Part shown: positions 733 through 64,000 of the stretch, piece after piece | Layout of the letters: every line of letters begins with the position of its first letter | Position numbering within the stretch: the stretch's first letter is position 1 | Assembly (NCBI GenBank): GCA_026003255.1 | Contig: BPGX01000009.1 | Coordinates: forward strand, 47,224-111,223 | Length of the DNA: 64,000 nt | Direction: 5' to 3' | DNA from: Bacteroidia bacterium | Lineage (GTDB): Bacteria > Bacteroidota > Bacteroidia > B-17B0 > Aurantibacillaceae | Notes under the pieces: generated by a model | Seen by the model: the letters and a program-made list of their open reading frames with translations, nothing else | The model's database searches: none | Told to the model about the DNA's origin: nothing | Program-made: the position numbers and the translations under genes

Positions 733-3495
733 TTAACTTTTTAATGTAAGTTTTTTATTCAAAAAATGGGCAGTAAAACTTTGTTTATGGTCTAAAAATC
801 CATCTAATGGACCTTGATAAATTAATCTTCCGCCATTTTTTCCACCTTCCGGACCAAGGTCGATAATCCAATCAACGTTTTTAATAATATCCAATTGATG
901 TTCAATAATAATGATAGTATGTCCACGCGTTATTAATAAATGGAGTGCCTTCATAAGAATATCAATGTCATAAAAATGCAGTCCTGTAGAAGGTTCGTCT
1001 AAAATGAATAAGGAAGGGGCAGATTTTTCATCTTGTAGAAAAGAGGCAATTTTTAATCGTTGTAATTCGCCGCCGCTCATTTTGGAAGTGCTTTGCCCGA
1101 GTTGAATATATCCCAATCCAACAGATTTTAAGATTTCTAATGTTTTTAAAATTTTATTTTTTAAGTCAGGAAACATTACTTCTCTCTCGAAAAGTTCAAT
1201 CGCTTCTTCAACAGAAATATCGAGCACATCACTAATGGAATGGTTAAAGTAATTGACTTGTAATACTTCTTCTTTGAATCTTTTTCCATTACATTCATCA
1301 CAGGTCATTTCAATATCCGCCATAAATTGCATAGGAATTCGAATAATGCCTTCGCCTTCGCATTTTTCGCATCTTCCACCAAAAGTATTAAAGGAAAAAT
1401 AAGATGGGTCTAAATAAATGCCTTGAAGTTTGGAATGTTTTGAAAATAAAAGCCGAATATCATCAAACACTTTGGTATATGTTGCACAGTTGCTTCGTGA
1501 GGAGGTACTGATAGAATTTTGATTGAGATAATGTATGTGTTTAATTTTGTTTACAACACCGGAAATTTTTTCTGATGTTTGATGATGTACAATGATTTTT
1601 TCTAATTCGGGAATTAGTTCTTCTTCTACCAGTGAGGACTTTCCGGATCCAGAAACACCTGTAATACAGGTAATCGCATTGAATGGGAATTGAATGGTAA
1701 TATTTTGGAGGTTATTAGCATTAGCGTTGGATAATTGTATAAATTCGAATGAATGACGTTTAAACGATGCTATTTCAACGAATTTTCTTTCAAATAAATA
1801 ATCTGCTGTGAGTGTATTAGCGTTTTTCATTTCATCAAAAGTTCCTTGAAAGACAATTTGTCCACCATTTTTTCCGGCCTTGGGCCCTAAATCAATTATT
1901 AAATCGGCGTGACGCATCACTTCTTCATCGTGCTCAACTACGATTACTGTATTTCCTTCGTCTCGTAGTTTCTTTAATGCATTAATTAGGCGTAAGGTAT
2001 CTCTTGGATGTAAGCCGGTTGTGGGTTCGTCTAATATGTAAATACTTCCTACTAAACTACTTCCAAGCGCTGTGGTGAGGTATACACGTTGCGCTTCACC
2101 GCCACTCAACGTGCGCATTTCACGATTTAGTGTGAGATACGGTAATCCAACATCACATAAAAATTCAAGACGGTGAATGATTTCATCCAGTAGTTTTTGA
2201 ATGGCTTCTTTGTGGGGAAAGAGATCAAGGTTTTCTTTGAAGAAATTGTACAATTCATCAACTGGTGTTTCAACAAGGTCAGCAATAGTTTTATTTAATA
2301 CTTTTATGTATAGAGCTTCTTTTCTAAGCCGTGAACCTTTACACATCGGACAAACGGTATTGGATTTTAAGTGAGAAAGCGGGTCGTACCAGGGAGATTT
2401 ATAGTAGTTGTTGAAGTAGTGTAAAATACCATAAATTCCATTGAGATTATTTTTACCAAACCATAAGGTTTCAAATTCTTCTGGACTTAGTTGACGGAAA
2501 GTTTTGGAAAAAATATCTGGAAAAAACTGTTGTAGTTCTTTAATTTCTTCTTTGATTTCGTATTTGAGTTTCATTCCTTTAATTAAAGGAATATCTTTAT
2601 CGACAAAAACTTTATGAGGGTCAAAGTCAAAAACTCTTCCTGTGCCTTTGCATTTTTGACATATTCCATAAGGGTTGTTAAAAGCAAACAGTTGTGGGGT
2701 AGGTTCTTCAAAAATTATTCCATCCGCATCAAGCGTATTACTGAACCGGTGAAAGTTCCATTCATCGTTGGATTGATGAATGACATAGCATTCTCCATTT
2801 CCTTGATTGAAGGCGGTTTCAATACTGTCTATTAAGCGAGATTCTGTATCTTCATCAAATGATAATTCTACATTTACTCTATCAATAATCAAAAAGCAAT
2901 GCTCGATTTTTTTGGGAAAATCAGAGAGTACATCGGCAATTTTGAATATTTGATAGTTGATTAAAACTCTTGAAAAACCTGAATGTACTAATTCTTCTAA
3001 AGTTTTTTTGAGTTTGGAAGAAAAGGGTATGAGGTTAGCGATATACACTGTAGACGATACAGGTAGTTGAGAAATAAACTGTAAAACATCGTCAGGGTAA
3101 TGCCGTTTTATTTCTTTACCAGTAACGGGGTGATAGATGGTTCCAACTCTTGAAAATAGCACGCGTAGATAGTCATATATTTCAGTAGCAGTTCCTACTG
3201 TACTTCTTGGATTGTTAGAGGTAACTTTTTGTTGAAGTGCTATACAGGGCGAAAGACCTTTGATGTAATCAACGGGTGGTTTAGGTAGTCGTTCTACAAA
3301 TTGTCGTGCGTAAGAGGATAAACTTTCAATATATCTTCTATGTCCTTCGGCATAAAGTGTGTCGTAAGCAAGAGAAGTTTTTCCTGAACCAGAAACGCCG
3401 GTAATTACAATAAGTTTATTATGAGGGATGGATACATCTATTCCCTTTAAGTTATGTGTTTGTGCATTTTTGATATAGATAAAATGTTCTGCCAT
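733..3495 (-). CDS. uvrA: UvrA-type excinuclease ABC subunit A (paralogue lacking one zinc cysteine pair)
   Basis: ATPase that loads UvrB on damaged DNA in nucleotide excision repair, in the cytoplasm. The 920 aa match the family length (about 940). Visible: Walker A GVSGSGKTS near residue 33, ABC signature LSGGEAQRV near 461, second Walker A GVSGSGKSS near 612, second signature MSGGELQRL near 804, and two LDEPTTGLH/LDEPSTGLH Walker B regions. The second zinc module (CEKC...CDEC) is complete. In the first module the pair CQKC is present but the usual preceding CxxC is replaced by FSNTLDADGIIFEEP; this is, as I recall, a feature of a UvrA paralogue common in Bacteroidota. A TAATTTTG promoter element lies about 20 bp upstream of the ATG. 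Family certain; which paralogue is less so. Confidence 0.95.
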   Translation of the reverse strand: MAEHFIYIKNAQTHNLKGIDVSIPHNKLIVITGVSGSGKTSLAYDTLYAEGHRRYIESLSSYARQFVERLPKPPVDYIKGLSPCIALQQKVTSNNPRSTVGTATEIYDYLRVLFSRVGTIYHPVTGKEIKRHYPDDVLQFISQLPVSSTVYIANLIPFSSKLKKTLEELVHSGFSRVLINYQIFKIADVLSDFPKKIEHCFLIIDRVNVELSFDEDTESRLIDSIETAFNQGNGECYVIHQSNDEWNFHRFSNTLDADGIIFEEPTPQLFAFNNPYGICQKCKGTGRVFDFDPHKVFVDKDIPLIKGMKLKYEIKEEIKELQQFFPDIFSKTFRQLSPEEFETLWFGKNNLNGIYGILHYFNNYYKSPWYDPLSHLKSNTVCPMCKGSRLRKEALYIKVLNKTIADLVETPVDELYNFFKENLDLFPHKEAIQKLLDEIIHRLEFLCDVGLPYLTLNREMRTLSGGEAQRVYLTTALGSSLVGSIYILDEPTTGLHPRDTLRLINALKKLRDEGNTVIVVEHDEEVMRHADLIIDLGPKAGKNGGQIVFQGTFDEMKNANTLTADYLFERKFVEIASFKRHSFEFIQLSNANANNLQNITIQFPFNAITCITGVSGSGKSSLVEEELIPELEKIIVHHQTSEKISGVVNKIKHIHYLNQNSISTSSRSNCATYTKVFDDIRLLFSKHSKLQGIYLDPSYFSFNTFGGRCEKCEGEGIIRIPMQFMADIEMTCDECNGKRFKEEVLQVNYFNHSISDVLDISVEEAIELFEREVMFPDLKNKILKTLEILKSVGLGYIQLGQSTSKMSGGELQRLKIASFLQDEKSAPSLFILDEPSTGLHFYDIDILMKALHLLITRGHTIIIIEHQLDIIKNVDWIIDLGPEGGKNGGRLIYQGPLDGFLDHKQSFTAHFLNKKLTLKS

Positions 3496-3513
3496 TTAAG
3501 CTTCAATTTGTTG

Positions 3514-3521
3514 CAAAATTA
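3514..3521 (-). promoter_or_regulatory. Candidate -7 element for uvrA
   Basis: Reads TAATTTTG on the minus strand, matching the Bacteroidota -7 consensus TAnnTTTG, 18 bp before the uvrA ATG. No clear TTTG is seen at -33. Confidence 0.4.
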
Positions 3522-3571
3522 CACTTTTAAGTGTAAGGTTTATTTAAATTTTTATCTAAATTTACGCCATT

Positions 3572-6665: not shown

Positions 6666-8000
6666 ATGTCAATAACGAAGTTGATTACAAGTTATCAAAA
6701 ATCCAATGAGTATAGAAAAAGAATCCATGATTTAATTCCGGGTGGGGCACATACGTATTCAAAAGGAGATGATCAGTTTCCTTTACTTTCTCCTGCTGCT
6801 ATTACACATGGAAAGGGTTCTCATGTATGGGATGTAGATGGGAATGAGTATATTGAATGTTTGGGTGGATTAGCATCTATCAGTTTGGGACATGCGTATG
6901 AACCGGTTGTACAGCGTGTGATTCAAGAGTTATGGAAGGGTAATAATTTTTCACGTCCATCGGTTATTGAAATGGAAATGGCAGAAAAATTTTTAGCCAA
7001 TCTTCCCGGACATGATATGATTAAGTTTGCAAAAAATGGATCAACGGTTACAACTGCTGCGGTGAAGTTGGCGCGTGCTTATACCGGGAGAAAATTAGTT
7101 GCAAGGCCAATTGATCATCCGTTTTATTCTTATGATGATTGGTTTATTGGGAGTACAGAGGTGAAGAGCGGTATTCCGGAAGAAATTCAATCGCTAACGG
7201 TGACTTTCAAAGCTGATGATTTACAATCGTTGAAAGAGATTTTTGCTAAGTATCCCAATCAAATTGCCTGCGTTATCAGTGAGCCAGAAAAATTCAATCC
7301 AGTGACGAAAGAGTTTTTACAGCAGGCGATTGATTTTGTTCATTCGCAGGGTGCTTTATGGATTATGGATGAGATGATAACAGGTTATCGTTCTTATTTC
7401 CCCGGTTCTATGGTAAAATTTGGGGTTGTACCAGATTTAGCGACGTGGGGAAAGGGCATTGCTAATGGTTTTTCTTTTTGTTGTTTGACAGGAAAGAGAG
7501 AAATCATGGAGTTAGGCGGTATTCGTCAGAAAGGAAAAGAGAAATTGTTTTTGATAAGTACCACGCATGGTGGTGAAACATGTAGTATTGCTGCCGCATT
7601 GGCGACGATGGAGGAATTTCAAAAATATGATGTAATAGGACATAATCATGAGTTAGGACGAAAATACATGGAAGGAGCAAATCGAATTATTGAACGTTAT
7701 GGCTTGCGAAATCATATTAAAGTAATGCAATTTCCGTGGCATGTTTCTTTGGGATATTTTGATGAAAATGGAAATAACTCATGGGAATTAAGAACCTTGT
7801 TTCATCAAGAGATGATCAGGCGAGGAATTTTATTTCAGGGGATTTTTTGTCCGCATTTTTCACATACGAATGAGGATGTGGATAGGATATTGGATGCATT
7901 TGATGAGTCGGCCAATGTTTTCAAAAAGGCGTTAGAAGATGGATGGGAGAAATATCTTGTTGGAGAGCCGATAAAACCTGTTTTTAGGAGGTATGTTTAA
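6666..8000 (+). CDS. Class-III PLP aminotransferase, glutamate-1-semialdehyde aminomutase-like, sugar cluster
   Basis: PLP-dependent aminotransferase of 444 aa. The N-terminus YRKRIHDLIPGGAHTYSKG and WDVDGNEYIECLGG are hallmarks of the GSA-aminomutase/aminotransferase class III fold. WIMDEMITGYR carries the PLP-ring aspartate, and TWGKGIANGF the Schiff-base lysine. The context is an SDR dehydrogenase 21 bp downstream, a NeuB-type synthase and a methyltransferase. That argues for transfer of an amino group in surface-sugar biosynthesis and against the haem-pathway HemL. The substrate is not readable from sequence. First gene of the cluster; it is separated from the SpoIIE gene by 58 bp. Confidence 0.8.
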   Translation: MSITKLITSYQKSNEYRKRIHDLIPGGAHTYSKGDDQFPLLSPAAITHGKGSHVWDVDGNEYIECLGGLASISLGHAYEPVVQRVIQELWKGNNFSRPSVIEMEMAEKFLANLPGHDMIKFAKNGSTVTTAAVKLARAYTGRKLVARPIDHPFYSYDDWFIGSTEVKSGIPEEIQSLTVTFKADDLQSLKEIFAKYPNQIACVISEPEKFNPVTKEFLQQAIDFVHSQGALWIMDEMITGYRSYFPGSMVKFGVVPDLATWGKGIANGFSFCCLTGKREIMELGGIRQKGKEKLFLISTTHGGETCSIAAALATMEEFQKYDVIGHNHELGRKYMEGANRIIERYGLRNHIKVMQFPWHVSLGYFDENGNNSWELRTLFHQEMIRRGILFQGIFCPHFSHTNEDVDRILDAFDESANVFKKALEDGWEKYLVGEPIKPVFRRYV

Positions 8001-8021
8001 TCTCTAAACTTTTACAAAAAG

Positions 8022-8843
8022 ATGTTGAAAAGAACTACACAAACATCGGAAATTAATTTCAAAGAAAAATTTAATCTAAGCGGTAAAGTTATCGTCATAA
8101 CTGGTGCTTGTGGTTTGATTGGTCGCGCTTTTTGTGAGGCAGTGGCACAATTTGGTGGACATGTAGTAGTGGTGGATATTGAAGCGGCAAAACCCACCGA
8201 ATTTGCAAAAGATTTAGAAAAAAGATATAATATTAAATGTATTGGAGTCGAAACAGAAGTGGAAAAGAAAGCATCTGTTTTACAACTCAAAGAAATAACT
8301 TTAAAGGAATTTGGAAAAATTGATGGTTTAGTGTGTGCGCATCAAAACAAATCTCATTTGAAATTTGAGCCATTTGAAAATGTTTGTGAAGAAAATTGGG
8401 ATAAGGTTATTGAAGTGAATTTAAAGGGTACTTTTTTGTTGTGTCAGGTGATAGGAAGCTATATGACACAACAGGGAAGTGGGAGCATTGTTACGATGCC
8501 TTCTACGTATAGTAATGTAGCTCCTAATCAGAATTTGTATAAAGGAACTTCTTTAGGTTGTCCTGCGGCTTATTCGGCGAGTAAGGGAGGTATTGATGCA
8601 TTGTCTCGTTATCTGGCATCTTATTGGGCAGATAAGGGGGTTAGAGTAAATATGATTACTCCACATGGAGTGTGGAACCATCATGAGAAAACATTTGAAG
8701 AAAATTTTGCTAATTTTAGCCCGATGAAACGAATGAGTTATAATCATGAAGTAGCGCCGGCTTTGATTTATTTATTGAGCGATGCATCATCTTATGTAAC
8801 GGGCTTAAACCTGAAAGTAGATGGTGGATGGACGGTGTGGTAA
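8022..8843 (+). CDS. SDR-family dehydrogenase of the surface-sugar cluster
   Basis: NAD(P)-dependent short-chain dehydrogenase/reductase, 273 aa. It has the nucleotide-binding TGACGLIGR near residue 26 and the catalytic YSASKGG (Tyr-xxx-Lys) near 186, with a Ser in IVTMPSTYS. The C-terminal VDGGW is the usual SDR ending. It resembles the PtmA-type oxidoreductases of legionaminate-like clusters, which is inference from context. It lies 21 bp after the aminotransferase and is probably co-transcribed with it. Its last 55 codons are repeated as a diverged copy at 11301-11465, on the other side of the restriction module, so this 3' end may be an imported allele. Confidence 0.85.
   Translation: MLKRTTQTSEINFKEKFNLSGKVIVITGACGLIGRAFCEAVAQFGGHVVVVDIEAAKPTEFAKDLEKRYNIKCIGVETEVEKKASVLQLKEITLKEFGKIDGLVCAHQNKSHLKFEPFENVCEENWDKVIEVNLKGTFLLCQVIGSYMTQQGSGSIVTMPSTYSNVAPNQNLYKGTSLGCPAAYSASKGGIDALSRYLASYWADKGVRVNMITPHGVWNHHEKTFEENFANFSPMKRMSYNHEVAPALIYLLSDASSYVTGLNLKVDGGWTVW
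8676..8843 (+). repeat. Direct repeat copy A: intact 3' end of the SDR gene
   Basis: The final 56 codons of the SDR gene, including the stop, match 11301-11465 at 149 of 162 compared bases by hand count. Twelve of the 13 differences are synonymous. Confidence 0.85.
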
Positions 8844-8893
8844 AATGTTTTTATATGGTGTTAAATATAAATAAATGGCTAACTGGAAAGTAA

Positions 8894-10318
8894 ATGTGCA
8901 ATATGAACAGAAGTACCTTAAACAAGCAGATAAGTTTTGAATTAATACAAAATCTTAAAAATGACCCAAAAGCATTTTCATCTTTTTTACAAAATCAAAA
9001 TGACGGAGCTATTATTTATGTTTTGGAAAAGTTTGGTAGATTAGAAAATGGCTATAGCAAAGAACCATTACAAAATTTACTAAATCACTCCAATGAAAAT
9101 ATTAGAGCTTTATCGATAAAAAATTTAGCAAAAATTGAAGATATTAACCTTTTACCTACTTTCATTAAATACGCAAGTACCGATGAAAGTACAATTGTAA
9201 GAAGAGAGGCGGTTTCTGCCATAGGGAGACTTAGAAATGAGAAAGCTATTCCTTCATTAATCAATTTTTTGAAAGATAAAGATCCAAAGGTTGTAATGCA
9301 AGCAATAAGAGGGTTGCTTGTATTTTCTCATAACTCAAGTGTGAAGAACGAATTAAAGAAATTGCTAAATCATCCTAACGAGATAATCAGAGAAGTTATT
9401 AATAAAGAGGTCAACGGGGTTCAATACCAATCGAAGAGTCAGCAAAGACATGACGAATTTCCTGAGTTTTTAAAAAATACTGTGGTTCATGGAGATGTGC
9501 AAGAAATAATAAAATATGTGCCCGATGAATCGGTTCATTTAACTTTTACATCGCCACCTTATTATAATGCTAGAGATTATTCGATTTATCAAAGTTATAA
9601 TGAGTATTTAAATTTTTTGGAACGAGTTTTTAAAGAAGTTCATCGTGTAACCAAAGAAGGTAGGTTTTTCGTCCTTAATACATCGCCAATCATTATTCCA
9701 AGGATTAGTAGGCAACACGCCAGCAAAAGGTACCCTATACCTTATGACATACATCCGTTGTTAATAAAAATGGGTTGGGAATTTATTGATGATATTGTAT
9801 GGGTTAAACCTGAAGCAAGTGTAAAAAATAGAAATGCAGGATTTTTACAACACAGAAAACCACTGGCTTATAAACCGAATGCTGTTACTGAAATGTTAAT
9901 GGTCTATCGAAAGAAGACTGATAAATTGATTGATTGGAACATAAGACAATATAGCCGGGATAAAGTAAAAAAAAGTAAGGTACTTGAAGAATACGAAACT
10001 ACAAATGTTTGGCGTATAGATCCTACATTTGATAAAGTGCATACCGCAGTTTTTCCGCTCGAACTTTGTAATAGAGTTATTAAATTCTATTCTTTTATAG
10101 GAGATTTAATCTTCGATCCATTTGCGGGTAGTGGAACATTAGGCAGAGCAGCATTAAATCTAAATAGAAACTTTTTCTTAACGGAAAAAGAAGCTAAATA
10201 CATAAATAGAATTAAAGAGGAATTAAATAAAGTAGGTAATTTATTTAATCAAGTGGGTCAACCAAAATTTGTTAGCCTTCAAGAATTTATTACTTTAACA
10301 GAGAAAAAAGGTATATGA
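8894..10318 (+). CDS. HEAT-repeat protein fused to beta-class DNA methyltransferase (likely N4-cytosine)
   Basis: Modification enzyme of 474 aa. Residues about 50-175 form HEAT/PBS-lyase-like helical repeats (AVSAIGRLRNEKAIPSLINFL). Residues about 190-460 form an AdoMet-dependent DNA methyltransferase. Catalytic motif IV TSPPYYN is near residue 219, and SAM-binding motif I DPFAGSGTLGRAAL is near 407. The IV-before-I order is beta class, and SPPY is typical of N4-cytosine (some N6-adenine) enzymes. The stop overlaps the next start as ATGA, so it is translationally coupled to the broken endonuclease that follows. The pair is a type II restriction-modification module inserted in the sugar operon. 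The start at 8894 is chosen over the internal ATG at codon 4 by length only. Confidence 0.88.
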   Translation: MCNMNRSTLNKQISFELIQNLKNDPKAFSSFLQNQNDGAIIYVLEKFGRLENGYSKEPLQNLLNHSNENIRALSIKNLAKIEDINLLPTFIKYASTDESTIVRREAVSAIGRLRNEKAIPSLINFLKDKDPKVVMQAIRGLLVFSHNSSVKNELKKLLNHPNEIIREVINKEVNGVQYQSKSQQRHDEFPEFLKNTVVHGDVQEIIKYVPDESVHLTFTSPPYYNARDYSIYQSYNEYLNFLERVFKEVHRVTKEGRFFVLNTSPIIIPRISRQHASKRYPIPYDIHPLLIKMGWEFIDDIVWVKPEASVKNRNAGFLQHRKPLAYKPNAVTEMLMVYRKKTDKLIDWNIRQYSRDKVKKSKVLEEYETTNVWRIDPTFDKVHTAVFPLELCNRVIKFYSFIGDLIFDPFAGSGTLGRAALNLNRNFFLTEKEAKYINRIKEELNKVGNLFNQVGQPKFVSLQEFITLTEKKGI

Positions 10319-11231
10319 CAATAACCGAACAAGTCGCAAAAAATATAATTAGGAAATTATTAAAAGGAGAAGACTACAGAATAGAGGTAGTTACTTTAAT
10401 TAATGCTGAATTTTTGCAATTTGCGATAGATTTCTTTAAAAGAATCGTTGATGCAAAATTAAAAAGTCAAAATATAACCGTTGACTGGTATAAAAAAAGA
10501 ATTTCTTAATCCAGAATTACCAGCAAGAGATATTGCTATTAATGCCGGATTGAATAAAAAAACCATTCATAATATGTTTAATTCCTCTACAAAGGAGATA
10601 GTTATAGATGCATCAAATGAACATTATGACTCTTTGTATGAAACAATTAAAAATCTTGTGGAAACAGAACACGATCTTGATCTTACATTAACCATTAAAT
10701 TTAAAGGTGTAAGTGTTGATTTAAATGTAAGCGAGAGTTTGATAGTAATAAATACTCTTGCAGTAAAGCGAGCAGAGTTAAGGGGTGGTTTATGGAGTAC
10801 TGCTGGTAAAAGAGTAGAAAAACCACTTATGGAAACATTATGCAAATTGTATGATGTGCCTGAGAATAATTATGCTGTAAAAATTAAAAGGTAAAATCAT
10901 AAAAGATGTTGACTTTGAAAGAGAGGTTGACTTTTACTTAGTTGAAGGTAAAAACCAATACAAATGTGAAGTTAAATTAATGGGAAGGGGAAATCCGGAA
11001 AGCGCCGATGCTGTTATAGCAAGAGATAGCAAGGTATTTGTAGCGGATAAACTTTCAGAAACAAACAAGAGACAACTTGATAGCTTAGGTGTTGAGTGGG
11101 TTGAATTAAGAAGTAACGGCGGATTTCAAAGATTTGAAATCGTGCTTGATCATTTAAGAATTCCGCATGGCAAATTACCGCGAAACGTAGATCAAAGGTT
11201 GGAAATAATTTTAAATAAACTATTAAAATAA
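10315..11231 (+). pseudogene. Type II restriction endonuclease, CfrBI-like, frameshifted twice as read
   Basis: Cognate endonuclease of the preceding methyltransferase, spread over three frames: 10315..10509, then 10481..10894, then about 10896..11231. The joins are consistent with one extra A each, in the seven-A run at 10490-10496 (restoring WYKKEFLNPELP) and in the AAAAGG at about 10888-10893 (restoring VKIKGKIIKDVDF). The repaired product would be about 305 aa. Its third segment carries CEVKLMGRGNPESAD preceded by acidic residues, consistent with a D...ExK nuclease core. The wording of this segment and RGGLWSTAGKRVEKP recall the CfrBI family, but this is from memory. The breaks could be sequencing error, slip-strand phase variation or real decay. 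Confidence 0.65.
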
Positions 11232-11300
11232 ACGGCACACTTTATGTTATGAACAAATATCCATTAATGAGATATCTTAATTAAATAAAAATTGAACCTA

Positions 11301-11465
11301 AATCACCACGAAAAAACATTTGAAGAGAATTTTGCTAATTTTAGCCCGATGAGACGCATGAGTTACAATCATGAAGTAGCACCGGCTTTAATTTATTTAT
11401 TGAGCGATGCTTCTTCTTATGTAACGGGCTTAAATCTGAAAGTAGATGGTGGATGGACGGTGTGA
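11301..11465 (+). pseudogene. Orphan 3' fragment of an SDR gene (direct repeat copy B)
   Basis: Codes for the last 54 residues of the SDR protein (NHHEKTFEENFANFSPM...VDGGWTV) in one open frame, with a TGA stop but no start and no upstream part. The protein differs from the intact copy by one Lys/Arg change and lacks the final Trp, while the DNA differs at 13 sites. It sits immediately before the thioesterase gene, where the SDR gene would end if the restriction module were absent. It is therefore probably the original end of the host gene. Confidence 0.85.
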
Positions 11466-11478
11466 TAAAAAATATAAC

Positions 11479-11906
11479 ATGAGTTATTCCATAGAAAATT
11501 TTAATATTGCATTAAAACTAAGAATTGATTGGAGTGAACTGGATTATTTTGGTCATGTAAACAATGTTTCTTTTTTTAAATACATTCAGGCAGGTCGTGT
11601 GAATTATTGGGAAAAAATAGGATTGATTGAGTATTACAAACAACATAAAATTGGTCCCCATGTTGTATTCCTGTAAATGCACTTTCCTAAGAGAACTGCA
11701 TTATCCGGGAGACATACAGATTTTAAACAAAAACTTCCAAAGTTGGAAATACAAGTTTTGTGTTACATCATCTCATTACCAATAATCAAAAGGACATCGC
11801 CGCTGAAGCAGAAGATGTTGTTGTCATGTTTGATTTTAATAAAATGAATAAAATTCAAATACCAGATGAATTAAGAAAAAGTATTGAAAAAGTTGAATCA
11901 AAATAA
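11479..11906 (+). pseudogene. Hot-dog (4HBT) acyl-CoA thioesterase-like gene, frameshifted as read
   Basis: The true start is ATG at 11479 (MSYSIENFNIALKLRIDW); the track start at 11446 reads through the SDR remnant. The first part, WSELDYFGHVNNVSFFKYI, is the classic 4HBT active-site region (Asp near the N-terminus, HVNN). The frame breaks after HVVFL at about 11676. It is picked up as CTFLRELHYPGDIQ in a second frame and as KTSKVGNTSFVLHHLITNN...VESK in a third, ending at 11904-11906. Repaired length is about 142 aa, normal for the family. It lies between the SDR and NeuB genes, so it may act on an N-acyl group of the sugar rather than in fatty-acid metabolism; that is inference. Confidence 0.7.
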
Positions 11907-11917
11907 AAATTCGCTTT

Positions 11918-12972
11918 ATGAAAGTTCTGGATTTCATTAAAAATCATAACAAAGATATTATCTCTACTCCCTATATTATTGCTGAAGCAGGTGTAAATCA
12001 CGAAGGTTCCATGGAACTGGCCAAACGCTTAATTGATGAAGCAGCCGAGGGGCGGAGCTCATGCCATCAAATTTCAATCGTATAAGGGCAGAAACGCTGG
12101 CATCTAAAAACAGTCCCTATTATTGGGACATTACCAAAGAACCTACACGTTCTCAGTATGAGTTGTTTAAGAAGTATGATAAATTCTGGAAGAAAGAATA
12201 TGAGGAATTAAAGACATATTGTGACAAAGCAGGCATTGAATTTATGAGTACACCTTTTGATATTGAATCAGCTACTTTTTTAAACGATTTAATGCCTGTA
12301 TTTAAAATTTCTTCTTCTGATATTACCAATTTTCAATTTATTGAATATCAATGTTCATTTGGTAAGCCCATTATTCTCTCTACGGGTGCTTCCTATTTAT
12401 GGGAAATACAAGAAGCAGTAGATATTATTGAAAAGCATGGTAATCCTTTGATACTGATGCATTGTGTATTGAACTATCCAACCCCTAACAAGAATGCTAA
12501 TCTTGGAATGATACAAGGACTTAAAAAACATTTTCCTCAACACATTATCGGATATAGCGATCATACGTTACCACAAAATATGGAAGTTATTCATACTGCC
12601 GTATTATTAGGTGCTACTGTCGTTGAGAAGCATTTTACACACGATAAAACTTTACCCGGCAACGATCATTACCATGCTATGGATAAAGAGGACTTGAAAG
12701 TATTCTGGGATAAGTGGAAATTTACGGAAGAATTGTTAGGTTCATTCAAAGTTACAGCTTTACCAGATGAAGAACCTGCACGGCTAAATGCCAGAAGAAG
12801 CTTAGTAGCAGCAAGAGATATACCAAAAGGAAAAATTATTGAAGAGAAAGATTTGACGTGGAAAAGACCTGCACATGGAATTAGTGCAAAATACTATAAG
12901 GACTTAATAGGTAAGAAAGTGTTAGTGGATATTAAAGAAGATGAGATATTGAAATGGAATATGATTGAATGA
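11918..12972 (+). CDS. neuB: NeuB-family nonulosonate synthase (frameshifted near the N-terminus as read)
   Basis: Condenses a 6-carbon N-acetyl sugar with phosphoenolpyruvate to make a 9-carbon acidic sugar (sialic, legionaminic or related). The real start is ATG at 11918 (MKVLDFIKNHNKDI; then YIIAEAGVNHEGS). Indels in GAGGGGCGG (about 12047) and AAGGGCAG (about 12085) break the frame, so the track ORF starts only at 12061. After repair the text reads AGAHAIKFQSYKAETLAS, the normal NeuB beta-1/2 region. The barrel continues with STPFD, KISSSDITN and HCVLNYPTP, and YSDHT near the end. A C-terminal SAF/antifreeze-like domain (RRSLVAARDIPKG) completes the enzyme. Repaired length is about 351 aa. 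The exact sugar is not determinable, and no CMP-sugar synthetase gene is visible nearby. Confidence 0.85.
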
Positions 12973-60484: not shown

Positions 60485-63020
60485 TGTTTATTCATACTAC
60501 TTTTGACAAGTCAAAAGTACTACATCATTTAAAGCATTTTCTTCCATCGCAAAGCCCATTTAAAAGAATTTTGTACATCATAACCTCTTGCATTTTTTTC
60601 AACATTATTCCTTTCATGAAGCCAATCATCTGGCCTCTAAAGTTTTTGGCTATAAAAACATATCCCAATATCTTTGAATACAGAAAATGGTTCCATGAAG
60701 GGAAAATAGACGAAAATATCATTCGCGAAACCATTATTCAACATAAAGGTCAGGAAAATCTGGATGAATATTTTTTTTCGGTTACTTATATGACAACGTT
60801 GATATTTCCTTTGAAGGAAGATTAGGAAGAATCATGCATTTATGGAAAGATTATTACCAAATCAACATCAGCAAATACGTTCAGCCCCAAATTGTTCCGG
60901 ATCATCAGCAATTATTTAGACCAGGGAATTAGTATTGTGGAAGTTCCCCATATAAAGATGGTGGCTTACTGGATAATGTTCGATACTTTGAACAACAGTC
61001 GCTTATATCCTCCTTTTTTGCTTAAGAATGGTCGTGCAAGGCAATGGCTTTTGAATAATAGTGAAGAACTGCAACTGGAATACCTATTAGAATTGCTTGT
61101 TGGAAAAGAAGAATGGTTTGAAGAATATCTGTTTGATGTATCATTTGAACACCCCGGGCTGGAGTGGTATGGTCAGTGTGATTGAAGACCATCCTGAATA
61201 TCTGATAAAACCAAGAAAAATTTCTCTGGAGGAATTTTTTAATACTGGAATTACTTTTTTCAAATTGACTATCTGGATTATAAAATTACATTCTTGGAAA
61301 GCTTTATCAGTTGTCACCTCTATGCCTCAACAGCATTTGTTTGATCAACCTGAAAAAAGATATTCACTTTGAACTATTGCACTTATGGCAGGAAGCTTAC
61401 GAATGGACGTATTATTACAAAATATTAAATGGAATAAAACAAAATCTCATTTCAAAATCTGACTCTGAACAACAAGCTAAAACTCCCGAATTTCAAACCA
61501 TACATTGCATTGACGATCGTGAAGAATCTTTCCGGAGATATATTGAATTATTAGCTCCGAATAGTAAAACCTATTCAACAGCCGGATTCTTCAATATTGA
61601 CGCATATTATCAACCGCAGCATAGCCATTTCAAAATGAAAATCGCTCCTGCTCCCGCTAAACCCAAGCACGTCATTAAAGAAATTATCAATACCGTACAT
61701 TATGATGAACATACAGATATACAATTAGAAGCACGACAAGAAAGTAATATCTCCGGATGGTTAATGTCGCAAACTATTGGTTTTTGGTCTGCCATTCGTT
61801 TATTTAAATACCTGTTTAATCCTGATAAAAATCCGGTTGCTATCTCTTCCGAAGACCATACGCATCCGGAAGCATCCCTGCAATGTGATTACACTTCAAG
61901 TGAAGGCGAATTAAAATATGGCTTTACGCTTGAAGATGCCGCTGACAGAACAGAGATATTATTAAAAAGCATCGGTCTTACGTCTCATTTCGCTCCACTT
62001 GTCTATATCATTTCTCACGGTGCAGGAAGCACGAACAATCCTTATTATGCTGCTTATGACTGTGGCGCCTGCTCAGGAAAACCGGGATCTGTAAATGCCA
62101 GAGCACTTAGTTATTTTTTGAACCGAACTGATATTAGAAAAATACTCATGAATCGTGGAATAAATATCCCTGAAACAACAGTGTTTATTCCTTGTTTACA
62201 CAATACAACCACGGATGAATTAGTGTATTATGATATTGAAAAATTAAATCCTTCTCAAAAAGAACTTTTTAAGAAACATCAAAACATTTTCAAATCAGCA
62301 CTCGAATACAATGCCAAAGAAAGAGCCAGAAGATTCGCCAACTTCAACATTAAACATCTGTCTAAAGAAGAAATTCATAAGAAAATCAAACAACGGCAGT
62401 ATTCCATTTTTGAGCCAAGACCGGAATACAACCATGCCACAAATGCTGTGTGCATAGTCGGAAATCTAAGTTTAACACGTAATTTATTTTTAGACCGAAG
62501 GGCGTTTTTACAGTCGTATGATTATAAGATGGACCCGGATGGAAAATTATTACTTGGACTGATGCGGGCACTTTCTCCGGTGTGCGGTGGTATTAATTTA
62601 GAATATTATTATTCCAGAACAGATAATCAAAAATTAGGTTCTGGTTCAAAATTACCTCATAATGTATTTGGTTTAATAAATGTAGCTAATGGGGCAGAAG
62701 GTGATTTGCGAATCGGCTTACCTTCTCAAATGGTTGAGATTCACGACCCGGTTCGACTGTTGATGGTCATTGAACAAAAACCGGACATTGTTCTACAAGT
62801 TTTAGAATCCGACTCTCATGTGTTAGAATGGTATAAGAACGAATGGATACATTTAGTTTGTTTAAATCCTGAAAGTAAAAAATACTATGTATATCGCGAT
62901 GAAAAATTTTTAGAACTGACTACGTTGAAAGAACAGCATTTAAAGAAAATTTCATTAGCAGAACTTGAAAATATTTTTGAAAAAGAATCTGAAAATCTTG
63001 ATGTTTATCAAATCATCTGA
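60484..63020 (+). CDS. dabA: DabA-type inorganic-carbon transporter subunit (DUF2309), 5' third frameshifted as read
   Basis: Peripheral subunit of the DAB bicarbonate/CO2 uptake system, carbonic-anhydrase-like. The repaired protein would be about 845 aa. MFIHTTFDKSKVLHHLKHFLPSQSPF starts it. The frame is then broken several times (60.57, 60.8-60.95, 61.18-61.37 kb), with family words such as HPGWSGMVSVIEDHPEYL in the shifted frames. From 61311 to 63020 it is intact. The zinc site has TIHCIDDREESFRRYIE (Cys and Asp), IISHGAGSTNNPYYAAYDCGACSG (His and Cys) and HNTTTDELVYYD. It is directly followed (2 bp) by dabB. Assignment by motif; activity not proven here. Confidence 0.85.
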
Positions 63021-63022
63021 AT

Positions 63023-64000
63023 ATGGAATTCATTCATCATCTTCTGACATCCATTTTAATCTTAAACATTATTGGATTTTTAGGAAGTTTATTTTTTGCG
63101 GAATACAAAGAAAAGCAGATAAAATATTATTGTTTCTCCATCGTGGGAATAATTTTTCTGCATCTTTTAATTTTAGTATTTCTACATCTTGTAAAGCATT
63201 TCCCATCATATGAATATTTACCTATTGCGTCTCTTTCATCATGGACATTATAGCTTTGACATTAACTTCTTATGGAATACTACAACACTGATTTTCTTAC
63301 TGACAGGGAACATTATTACCTTGTTGATTCTTTATTTTAGTGGTTATTACATGCATAGAGAAATTGGCTTACAAACGATTTTTTAATACTTTAATGTTTT
63401 TTTACTTTGCTTTTAATATTGTTGTTGCATCAGGTAATTTCACAACATTATTTATTGGTTGGGAATATCTGGGAATTTCTTCGTTTTTACTTATTGCATT
63501 TTACCGGGATAGATATTTACCGGTAAGAAATGCCCGTTAAAGTTTTTTCGGTATATCGGATAGGTGATATTGGTTTGATTATCTCTGTATGGGCATTACA
63601 TCAATTAGTTCACGAACAGGTTTTATTCTATGATTTGAAAGAACATTCTTTCGTGCTTGCCTATTTTGATAAAAATTATTGGATAACACTATTTATTGGT
63701 TTGTGGAATTTTGATTGCCGCCATTGGTAAATCAGCACTCTTTCCTTTTTCATATTGGTTGCCTCGTGCAATGGAAGGGGCCTACGGGATCTTCAGCTAT
63801 ATTTTATGGCGCCCTTTCAGTGCATGCCGGGATTCTGCTATTATTAAAAACCTATTATTTATGGTCAGAAATTTACGTTTTAAGAGTAGTAATGATTTTC
63901 GTAGGTCTTATCACATATTTTACTGCCAATAAATCTGCCAAACTACAATCCTCCATCAAACCTCAGATTGCTTATAGTTCCATAGTACAAATTGGAATCA
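63023..64000 (+). CDS. dabB: DabB-type proton-conducting membrane subunit (NuoL-like), frameshifted, right end beyond window
   Basis: Membrane partner of DabA, related to NADH-dehydrogenase/Mrp antiporter subunit NuoL. MEFIHHLLTSILILNIIGFLGSLF starts at 63023, 2 bp after dabA. Frames change at about 63215-63250, 63330-63360, 63530 and 63700-63710. Across them the family text is continuous: LTGNIITLLILYFSGYYMH, TTLFIGWEYLGISSFLLIAFYRD, VFSVYRIGDIGLIISVWALH and IGKSALFPFSYWLPRAMEGP, the lysine/arginine-bearing antiporter helices. The open frame continues past 64000 (QIAYSSIVQIGI). With DabA it forms the operon; cation coupling is inferred. Confidence 0.8.

Follow-up and report, generated by a model that had tools for sequence, protein, structure and literature searches.

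The window, a stretch of 64,000 nucleotides, comprises bases 47224-111223 of contig C9 and lies at the right end of that contig, within a draft assembly of 3.05 Mb in 31 contigs (a MAG whose completeness is 89.6% and whose contamination is 5.3%). Analysis of open reading frames and Pfam matches places a nonulosonate operon at 6666-12972, in the order class-III aminotransferase, SDR oxidoreductase, methyltransferase and endonuclease, orphan SDR 3' end, thioesterase and NeuB-type synthase; the genes and gene ends of this operon all read on the forward strand. The aminotransferase gene upstream (6666-8000) is intact (Pfam Aminotran_3, 1e-30; NCBIfam PRK06209.1, 1e-168, above its cut-off). The SDR gene (8022-8843; Pfam adh_short_C2, 2.5e-44) has a complete reading frame, in keeping with an earlier claim that its protein stays intact, and orthologues in congeners share 81% amino acid identity with it. 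These maps bear out the order and positions of the SDR gene, the methyltransferase–endonuclease pair and the orphan SDR end given in a preliminary description of this DNA. That description made a sugar gene the immediate successor of the orphan end, which needs correction: a 4HBT-type thioesterase gene (11479-11907; Pfam 4HBT_2, 6.8e-8) comes first and separates the orphan end from neuB, the nonulosonate synthase gene (11918-12972; Pfam NeuB, 1.5e-66, and SAF, 1e-17). No tRNA or known RNA family was found in the window.

Between the SDR gene and the orphan end (8844-11300) lie only the two genes of a restriction-modification (RM) module. The DNA methyltransferase (8903-10318, with a second possible start at an ATG at 8894) is intact and joins N-terminal HEAT repeats to a C-terminal N6/N4 methyltransferase domain (Pfam N6_N4_Mtase, 3.5e-41, and HEAT_2, 1e-16; PADLOC MTase_II, 9.7e-89). 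It carries SAM and TSPPY motifs, and TSPPY and DPFxGSG are invariant. The adjoining gene (10315-11231) encodes a CfrBI-like type II endonuclease. Two +1 insertions, one at 10492 and the other at 10886, divide its sequence among three frames, as comparison with loci L072, L073 and L074 reveals. All three pieces are matched by the PADLOC REase_II profile PDLC03496 (profile positions 1-62, 66-190 and 227-307), and the middle piece matches Pfam RE_CfrBI at 9e-12, a match that exceeds the cut-off. The module resembles the CfrBI type II system in its endonuclease, matched by RE_CfrBI and PDLC03496, and in the TSPPY-type methyltransferase that partners it; it differs in the HEAT repeats at the methyltransferase N-terminus.

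Many relatives of the module carry a small XRE-type regulator gene ahead of the methyltransferase (L072, L081, L085, L087, L089, L099 and L103), which in several of them ends 3-15 bp upstream of it. The window, by contrast, is without this controller, save at most its last ten codons: a possible remnant (VLNINKWLTGK followed by a stop, 8858-8893) has a weak, short similarity to the ends of the relatives' genes. On the other side of the module, a 69-bp spacer (11232-11300), whose matches in the loci compared are all short and no better than chance, separates the endonuclease stop codon from the orphan tail, and the right-hand joint lies near 11300. Neither an integrase gene or fragment nor an IS was found in the 2.4-kb insert. 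Avoidance of CCWWGG, the site that a CfrBI-like system would recognise, was considered as a sign of long residence and rejected; this motif is depleted relative to dinucleotide shuffles, but under a Markov model its depletion does not exceed that of control palindromes.

The doubled SDR 3' end consists of a left copy at 8676-8845 and a right copy at 11301-11470, which are 92% identical (E = 1e-68 on comparison of the flanks), too close for a chance resemblance. Within the right copy, the orphan reading frame (11301-11465) has 54 codons followed by TGA and is 92% identical to 8676-8840; the 3.05-Mb assembly holds these two copies of the SDR tail and no further ones. Comparison codon by codon reproduced the count given in the preliminary description, 13 differences in 162 bases (11301-11462) of which 12 are synonymous, and the remaining one replaces K by R. 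A fourteenth change had been missed: TGG has become TGA at 11463-11465, so that the orphan stops one codon early and lacks the terminal Trp found in the window's own SDR and in 14 of 14 orthologues. At the protein level the tails are 98% identical. Four of the differences fall in the first four codons of the orphan, which thus has no perfect crossover core at its edge.

The distances of the two tails to the 14 orthologues are nearly equal. Against three congeners the own and orphan tails show 36 and 39, 47 and 47, and 46 and 49 differences, an even result for the suggested comparison of whether the orphan matches the relatives' allele better; with the two tails equidistant, the relatives have no power to judge which is native. 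The equidistance and the 98% protein identity indicate that the tails are sister alleles of one gene.

How the two copies diverged was simulated by applying equal mutation to one constrained and one unconstrained copy until approximately 11-13 synonymous changes had accumulated. Drift of this kind after a duplication would be expected to bring 18-21 amino acid changes (18 at 11 synonymous changes); two were observed, and two or fewer nonsynonymous changes were never reached in 3000 runs at that divergence (P <= 0.001). A dead orphan copy drifting after an insertion-made duplication is ruled out by this result. The earlier claim that both ends evolved in working genes gains support from the simulation and from the equidistance of the tails to the orthologues, and divergence of both under selection as working gene ends is, on these comparisons, well supported. 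With the drift model rejected, the tails must have diverged in use and been brought together recently. The same result bears on the reading in which the RM insertion itself copied a target of approximately 170 bp and the copies then diverged, which we consider quite unlikely. Its size and position fit, in that a 170-bp direct target repeat flanks a bare RM unit here and duplications of approximately 100 bp have been reported (PMC3874152); drift nevertheless predicts some 18-21 amino acid changes where two are found, and the simple form of this reading is rejected by the synonymous-only divergence.

The right-hand joint lies inside a low-quality stretch, 10490-12090, in which alignments with relatives reveal six one-base insertions and no other damage. 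The endonuclease, thioesterase and neuB genes are each split into frames by them: two insertions fall in the endonuclease (10492, A; 10886, A), two, placed by frameshift-aware alignment, in the thioesterase (approximately 11656-11670 and 11726-11735), and two, seen on alignment with five relatives, in neuB (12049, G; 12086, G). All lie in or next to base runs, and on the maps of ORFs and Pfam matches the other genes from 0 to approximately 60 kb are open. Gene decay as the cause was ruled out, as all six changes are +1, three consecutive genes are affected and the same type of error recurs at the contig end; since genuine decay should leave deletions, stops and missense changes side by side, we read this stretch as low-accuracy sequence. 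The frameshifts in the three genes are thus most likely sequencing errors, and all three are probably intact. One-base indels also cluster at the contig end (window positions 60490-64000), where base runs have gained a base in 10 of 12 events and where the indels break a DabA gene and the Proton_antipo_M gene that follows; this likely low-coverage sequence offers a yardstick for errors, which were mapped on contig C9.

The joint falls midway in low-accuracy sequence, and the chief rival to a recombination between strains is an assembly seam at approximately 11300, at which two related strains, one with SDR and module and the other with SDR, thioesterase and neuB, would have been joined to produce the doubled end. 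We regard such an artefact as possible, though it is not the reading we favour. The source is a MAG of the completeness and contamination given above, the six +1 insertions are roughly centred on the joint in a contig whose other genes are open as far as 60 kb, the same error signature appears at the contig end, a place of typically low coverage, and a tail identity of 92% is what two strains would give. Against this, the sequence at 11300 offers no overlap for an assembler to join on, and the assembly holds no second-strain copy of neuB, the thioesterase or the SDR. Moreover, only six indels in 1.6 kb would suggest a consensus of several reads and not one chimeric read.

In five family members with contigs covering the locus, the SDR gene is followed directly by neuB, with the aminotransferase also upstream in four, and the module, the orphan tail and the thioesterase are absent from the locus. 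The congeners, represented by one genome per species, are likewise without these three elements, and none of them carries the module. Among SDR orthologues at the level of the class, neuB lies directly 3' in three and other genes in the rest; none is accompanied by a thioesterase of this kind. Relatives with the order SDR, thioesterase and neuB had been predicted, but neither the 87 genomes of the family nor a sample of 395 genomes from the class contains one. By these gene orders the module is foreign to the operon as it exists in relatives.

Of the 87 family genomes, 40 encode a homologue of the thioesterase, the congeners not among them; the gene at 11479-11907 is unique to this genome at its place and is absent from the congeners altogether. 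Because this gene too is unique here at its place, comparison of the loci indicates that the interval between SDR and neuB has received more than one insertion. The orphan tail might then have arrived together with the thioesterase from a second SDR–thioesterase operon, that of a paralogue or of another species, independently of the arrival of the module. The absence of a thioesterase between SDR and neuB in all congeners and at every SDR locus inspected speaks for such a course, which we nevertheless judge improbable: in 0 of the 19 thioesterase homologue loci examined does an SDR gene, or neuB, stand beside the homologue, and tails with 98% protein identity that lie equally far from the orthologues are alleles of one gene.

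A search of 84,980 genomes yielded 198 relatives of the methyltransferase, and the best 80 of these were examined. These 80 span many bacterial and archaeal phyla, with up to 94% protein identity; the relatives at up to 94% include members of Marinimicrobia, Caldisericia, Patescibacteria and Altarchaeum. At the DNA level, the module is 90% identical to the copies in Marinimicrobia and Caldisericia (L072 and L073), and the cross-phylum homology extends from 8900-8903, at the methyltransferase start codon, to 11231-11232, at the endonuclease stop. The 90% identity and the confinement of the homology between these two points indicate a very recent transfer of the bare restriction gene pair across phyla. 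Judged by its sequence relatives, the pair is an independent traveller. No orthologous SDR stands beside other copies among the 80 module loci. The search that had been suggested for the same pair next to other SDR genes gave a single weak SDR match (29% identity, L133) in these loci, and a conserved SDR target for the module is thereby ruled out.

Flanking direct repeats are present at 6 of 64 other module copies, whereas none of 154 control pairs, drawn from flanking sequence on those contigs, shows one. Found at 6 of 64 loci only and mixed in kind, such repeats were rejected as a rule of the module family; by inspection, those of L143 look like IS copies, that of L097 like an intergenic repeat and that of L083 like a neighbouring methyltransferase gene. 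Some of the repeats are 99-205 bp long, which accords with a long target duplication on insertion; L072 and L073, the closest relatives of the module, are nevertheless without one. Among the copies with flanking repeats only L149, a 3.5-kb contig from Saprospiraceae, resembles the window. Its module has a gene end on one side and, on the other, a C-terminal fragment with 85% identity to that gene (L149:1-108 and 2799-3533). The two differ by nine synonymous and five nonsynonymous codon changes, and the contig may offer another instance of a gene end present twice.

We favour, at roughly even confidence, an origin by recombination between two closely related SDR alleles, through which the module entered, the gene end was made whole again and the tail that it displaced stayed behind. 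A mobile pair of the CfrBI kind, perhaps with a controller stump, would have entered the nonulosonate operon at the SDR 3' end. The incoming DNA would have carried, linked to the module, the SDR 3' end of a strain approximately 8% different, and exchange within the shared tail would then have joined a complete SDR gene to the module and shifted the displaced tail to the far side. One crossover with a circle of tail and module would give exactly this picture in a single step; a linear piece would give it too, if the joint on the right were illegitimate. The form of the donor, circular or linear, the direction of the exchange and the identity of the native tail are matters that we infer.

In favour of this recombination of alleles we count the nature of the tail differences (12 synonymous, one conservative, one stop), the outcome of the drift simulation, the equal distances of both tails to the 14 orthologues, the adjacency of aminotransferase, SDR and neuB in relatives with neither module nor tail, the cross-phylum DNA identity of the module, the excess of flanking repeats over the controls, and the six +1 frameshifts in or next to base runs, of a kind with 10 of 12 at the contig end. 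Against it stand the position of the right-hand joint inside the low-quality stretch, an insert with neither integrase nor IS, the thioesterase likewise unique at its place, and the four differences in the first four codons of the orphan. The earlier proposal of recombination with a foreign allele stands in part: diverged, selected alleles and an intact SDR speak for it, whereas the choice of native tail and a simple homologous joining at the right end remain proposals. Overall, the integration story is plausible. In a speculative and rather doubtful extension, bare RM modules would pass from strain to strain through homologous recombination at a host-gene 3' end that they carry. Under this scheme the doubled gene end would let the module excise and integrate in circular form, much as e14 does in icd but with no recombinase, and the host protein would stay whole.

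The preliminary description likened the integration to that of elements using tRNA 3' ends, a comparison better replaced by a protein-coding precedent, the insertion of e14 and phage 21 in the icd gene of Escherichia coli (PMC11148124, PMC4129442). In strain MG1655, e14 lies in icd with a 165-bp segment (icdC) duplicated; the copies differ by 12 exchanges, with two conservative replacements among the 54 C-terminal residues (PMC11148124); the lambdoid phage 21 likewise replaces 165 bp of E. coli icd (PMC4129442). As proposed for the SDR locus, the insert supplies an alternative 3' end for the host gene, and the displaced tail, with almost only silent differences, is found on the far side. The dimensions are strikingly alike, 165 bp, 12 changes and 54 codons in icd compared with 165 bp, 13-14 changes and 54 codons here. 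The two differ in that e14 is a prophage needing an integrase, whereas the 2.4-kb insert consists of the restriction pair only and has no recombinase. This same likeness in anatomy and numbers (PMC11148124) would speak for the module as the leftover of an island whose integrase, since lost, had targeted the SDR 3' end as its attachment site. We hold this to be highly unlikely, given an insert without integrase gene or fragment, relatives of the module none of which has an SDR attachment site, and a repeat whose edge is divergent and not an identical core.

The prophage e14, too, carries a restriction gene, mcrA. RM genes cross phyla without a transposase of their own, their entry into chromosomes being only partly understood. 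If real, and it is hostage to the low-quality stretch, the present case varies a type of RM insertion that has been described before. PMC3874152 and PMC3031569, citing Nobusato (2000) and Furuta (2010), describe RM units inserted with target duplications of approximately 100 bp. The resemblance is that of a bare RM unit between direct target repeats, with no mobile element; the difference is that the repeats at the SDR locus are diverged alleles that evolved under selection and not copies made by the insertion. A module between two selected alleles would, if this is true, suggest that such modules travel by ordinary homologous recombination between strains, in place of an insertion-made duplication, and the allele divergence of the flanking repeat would provide a simple test applicable to all such RM insertions.
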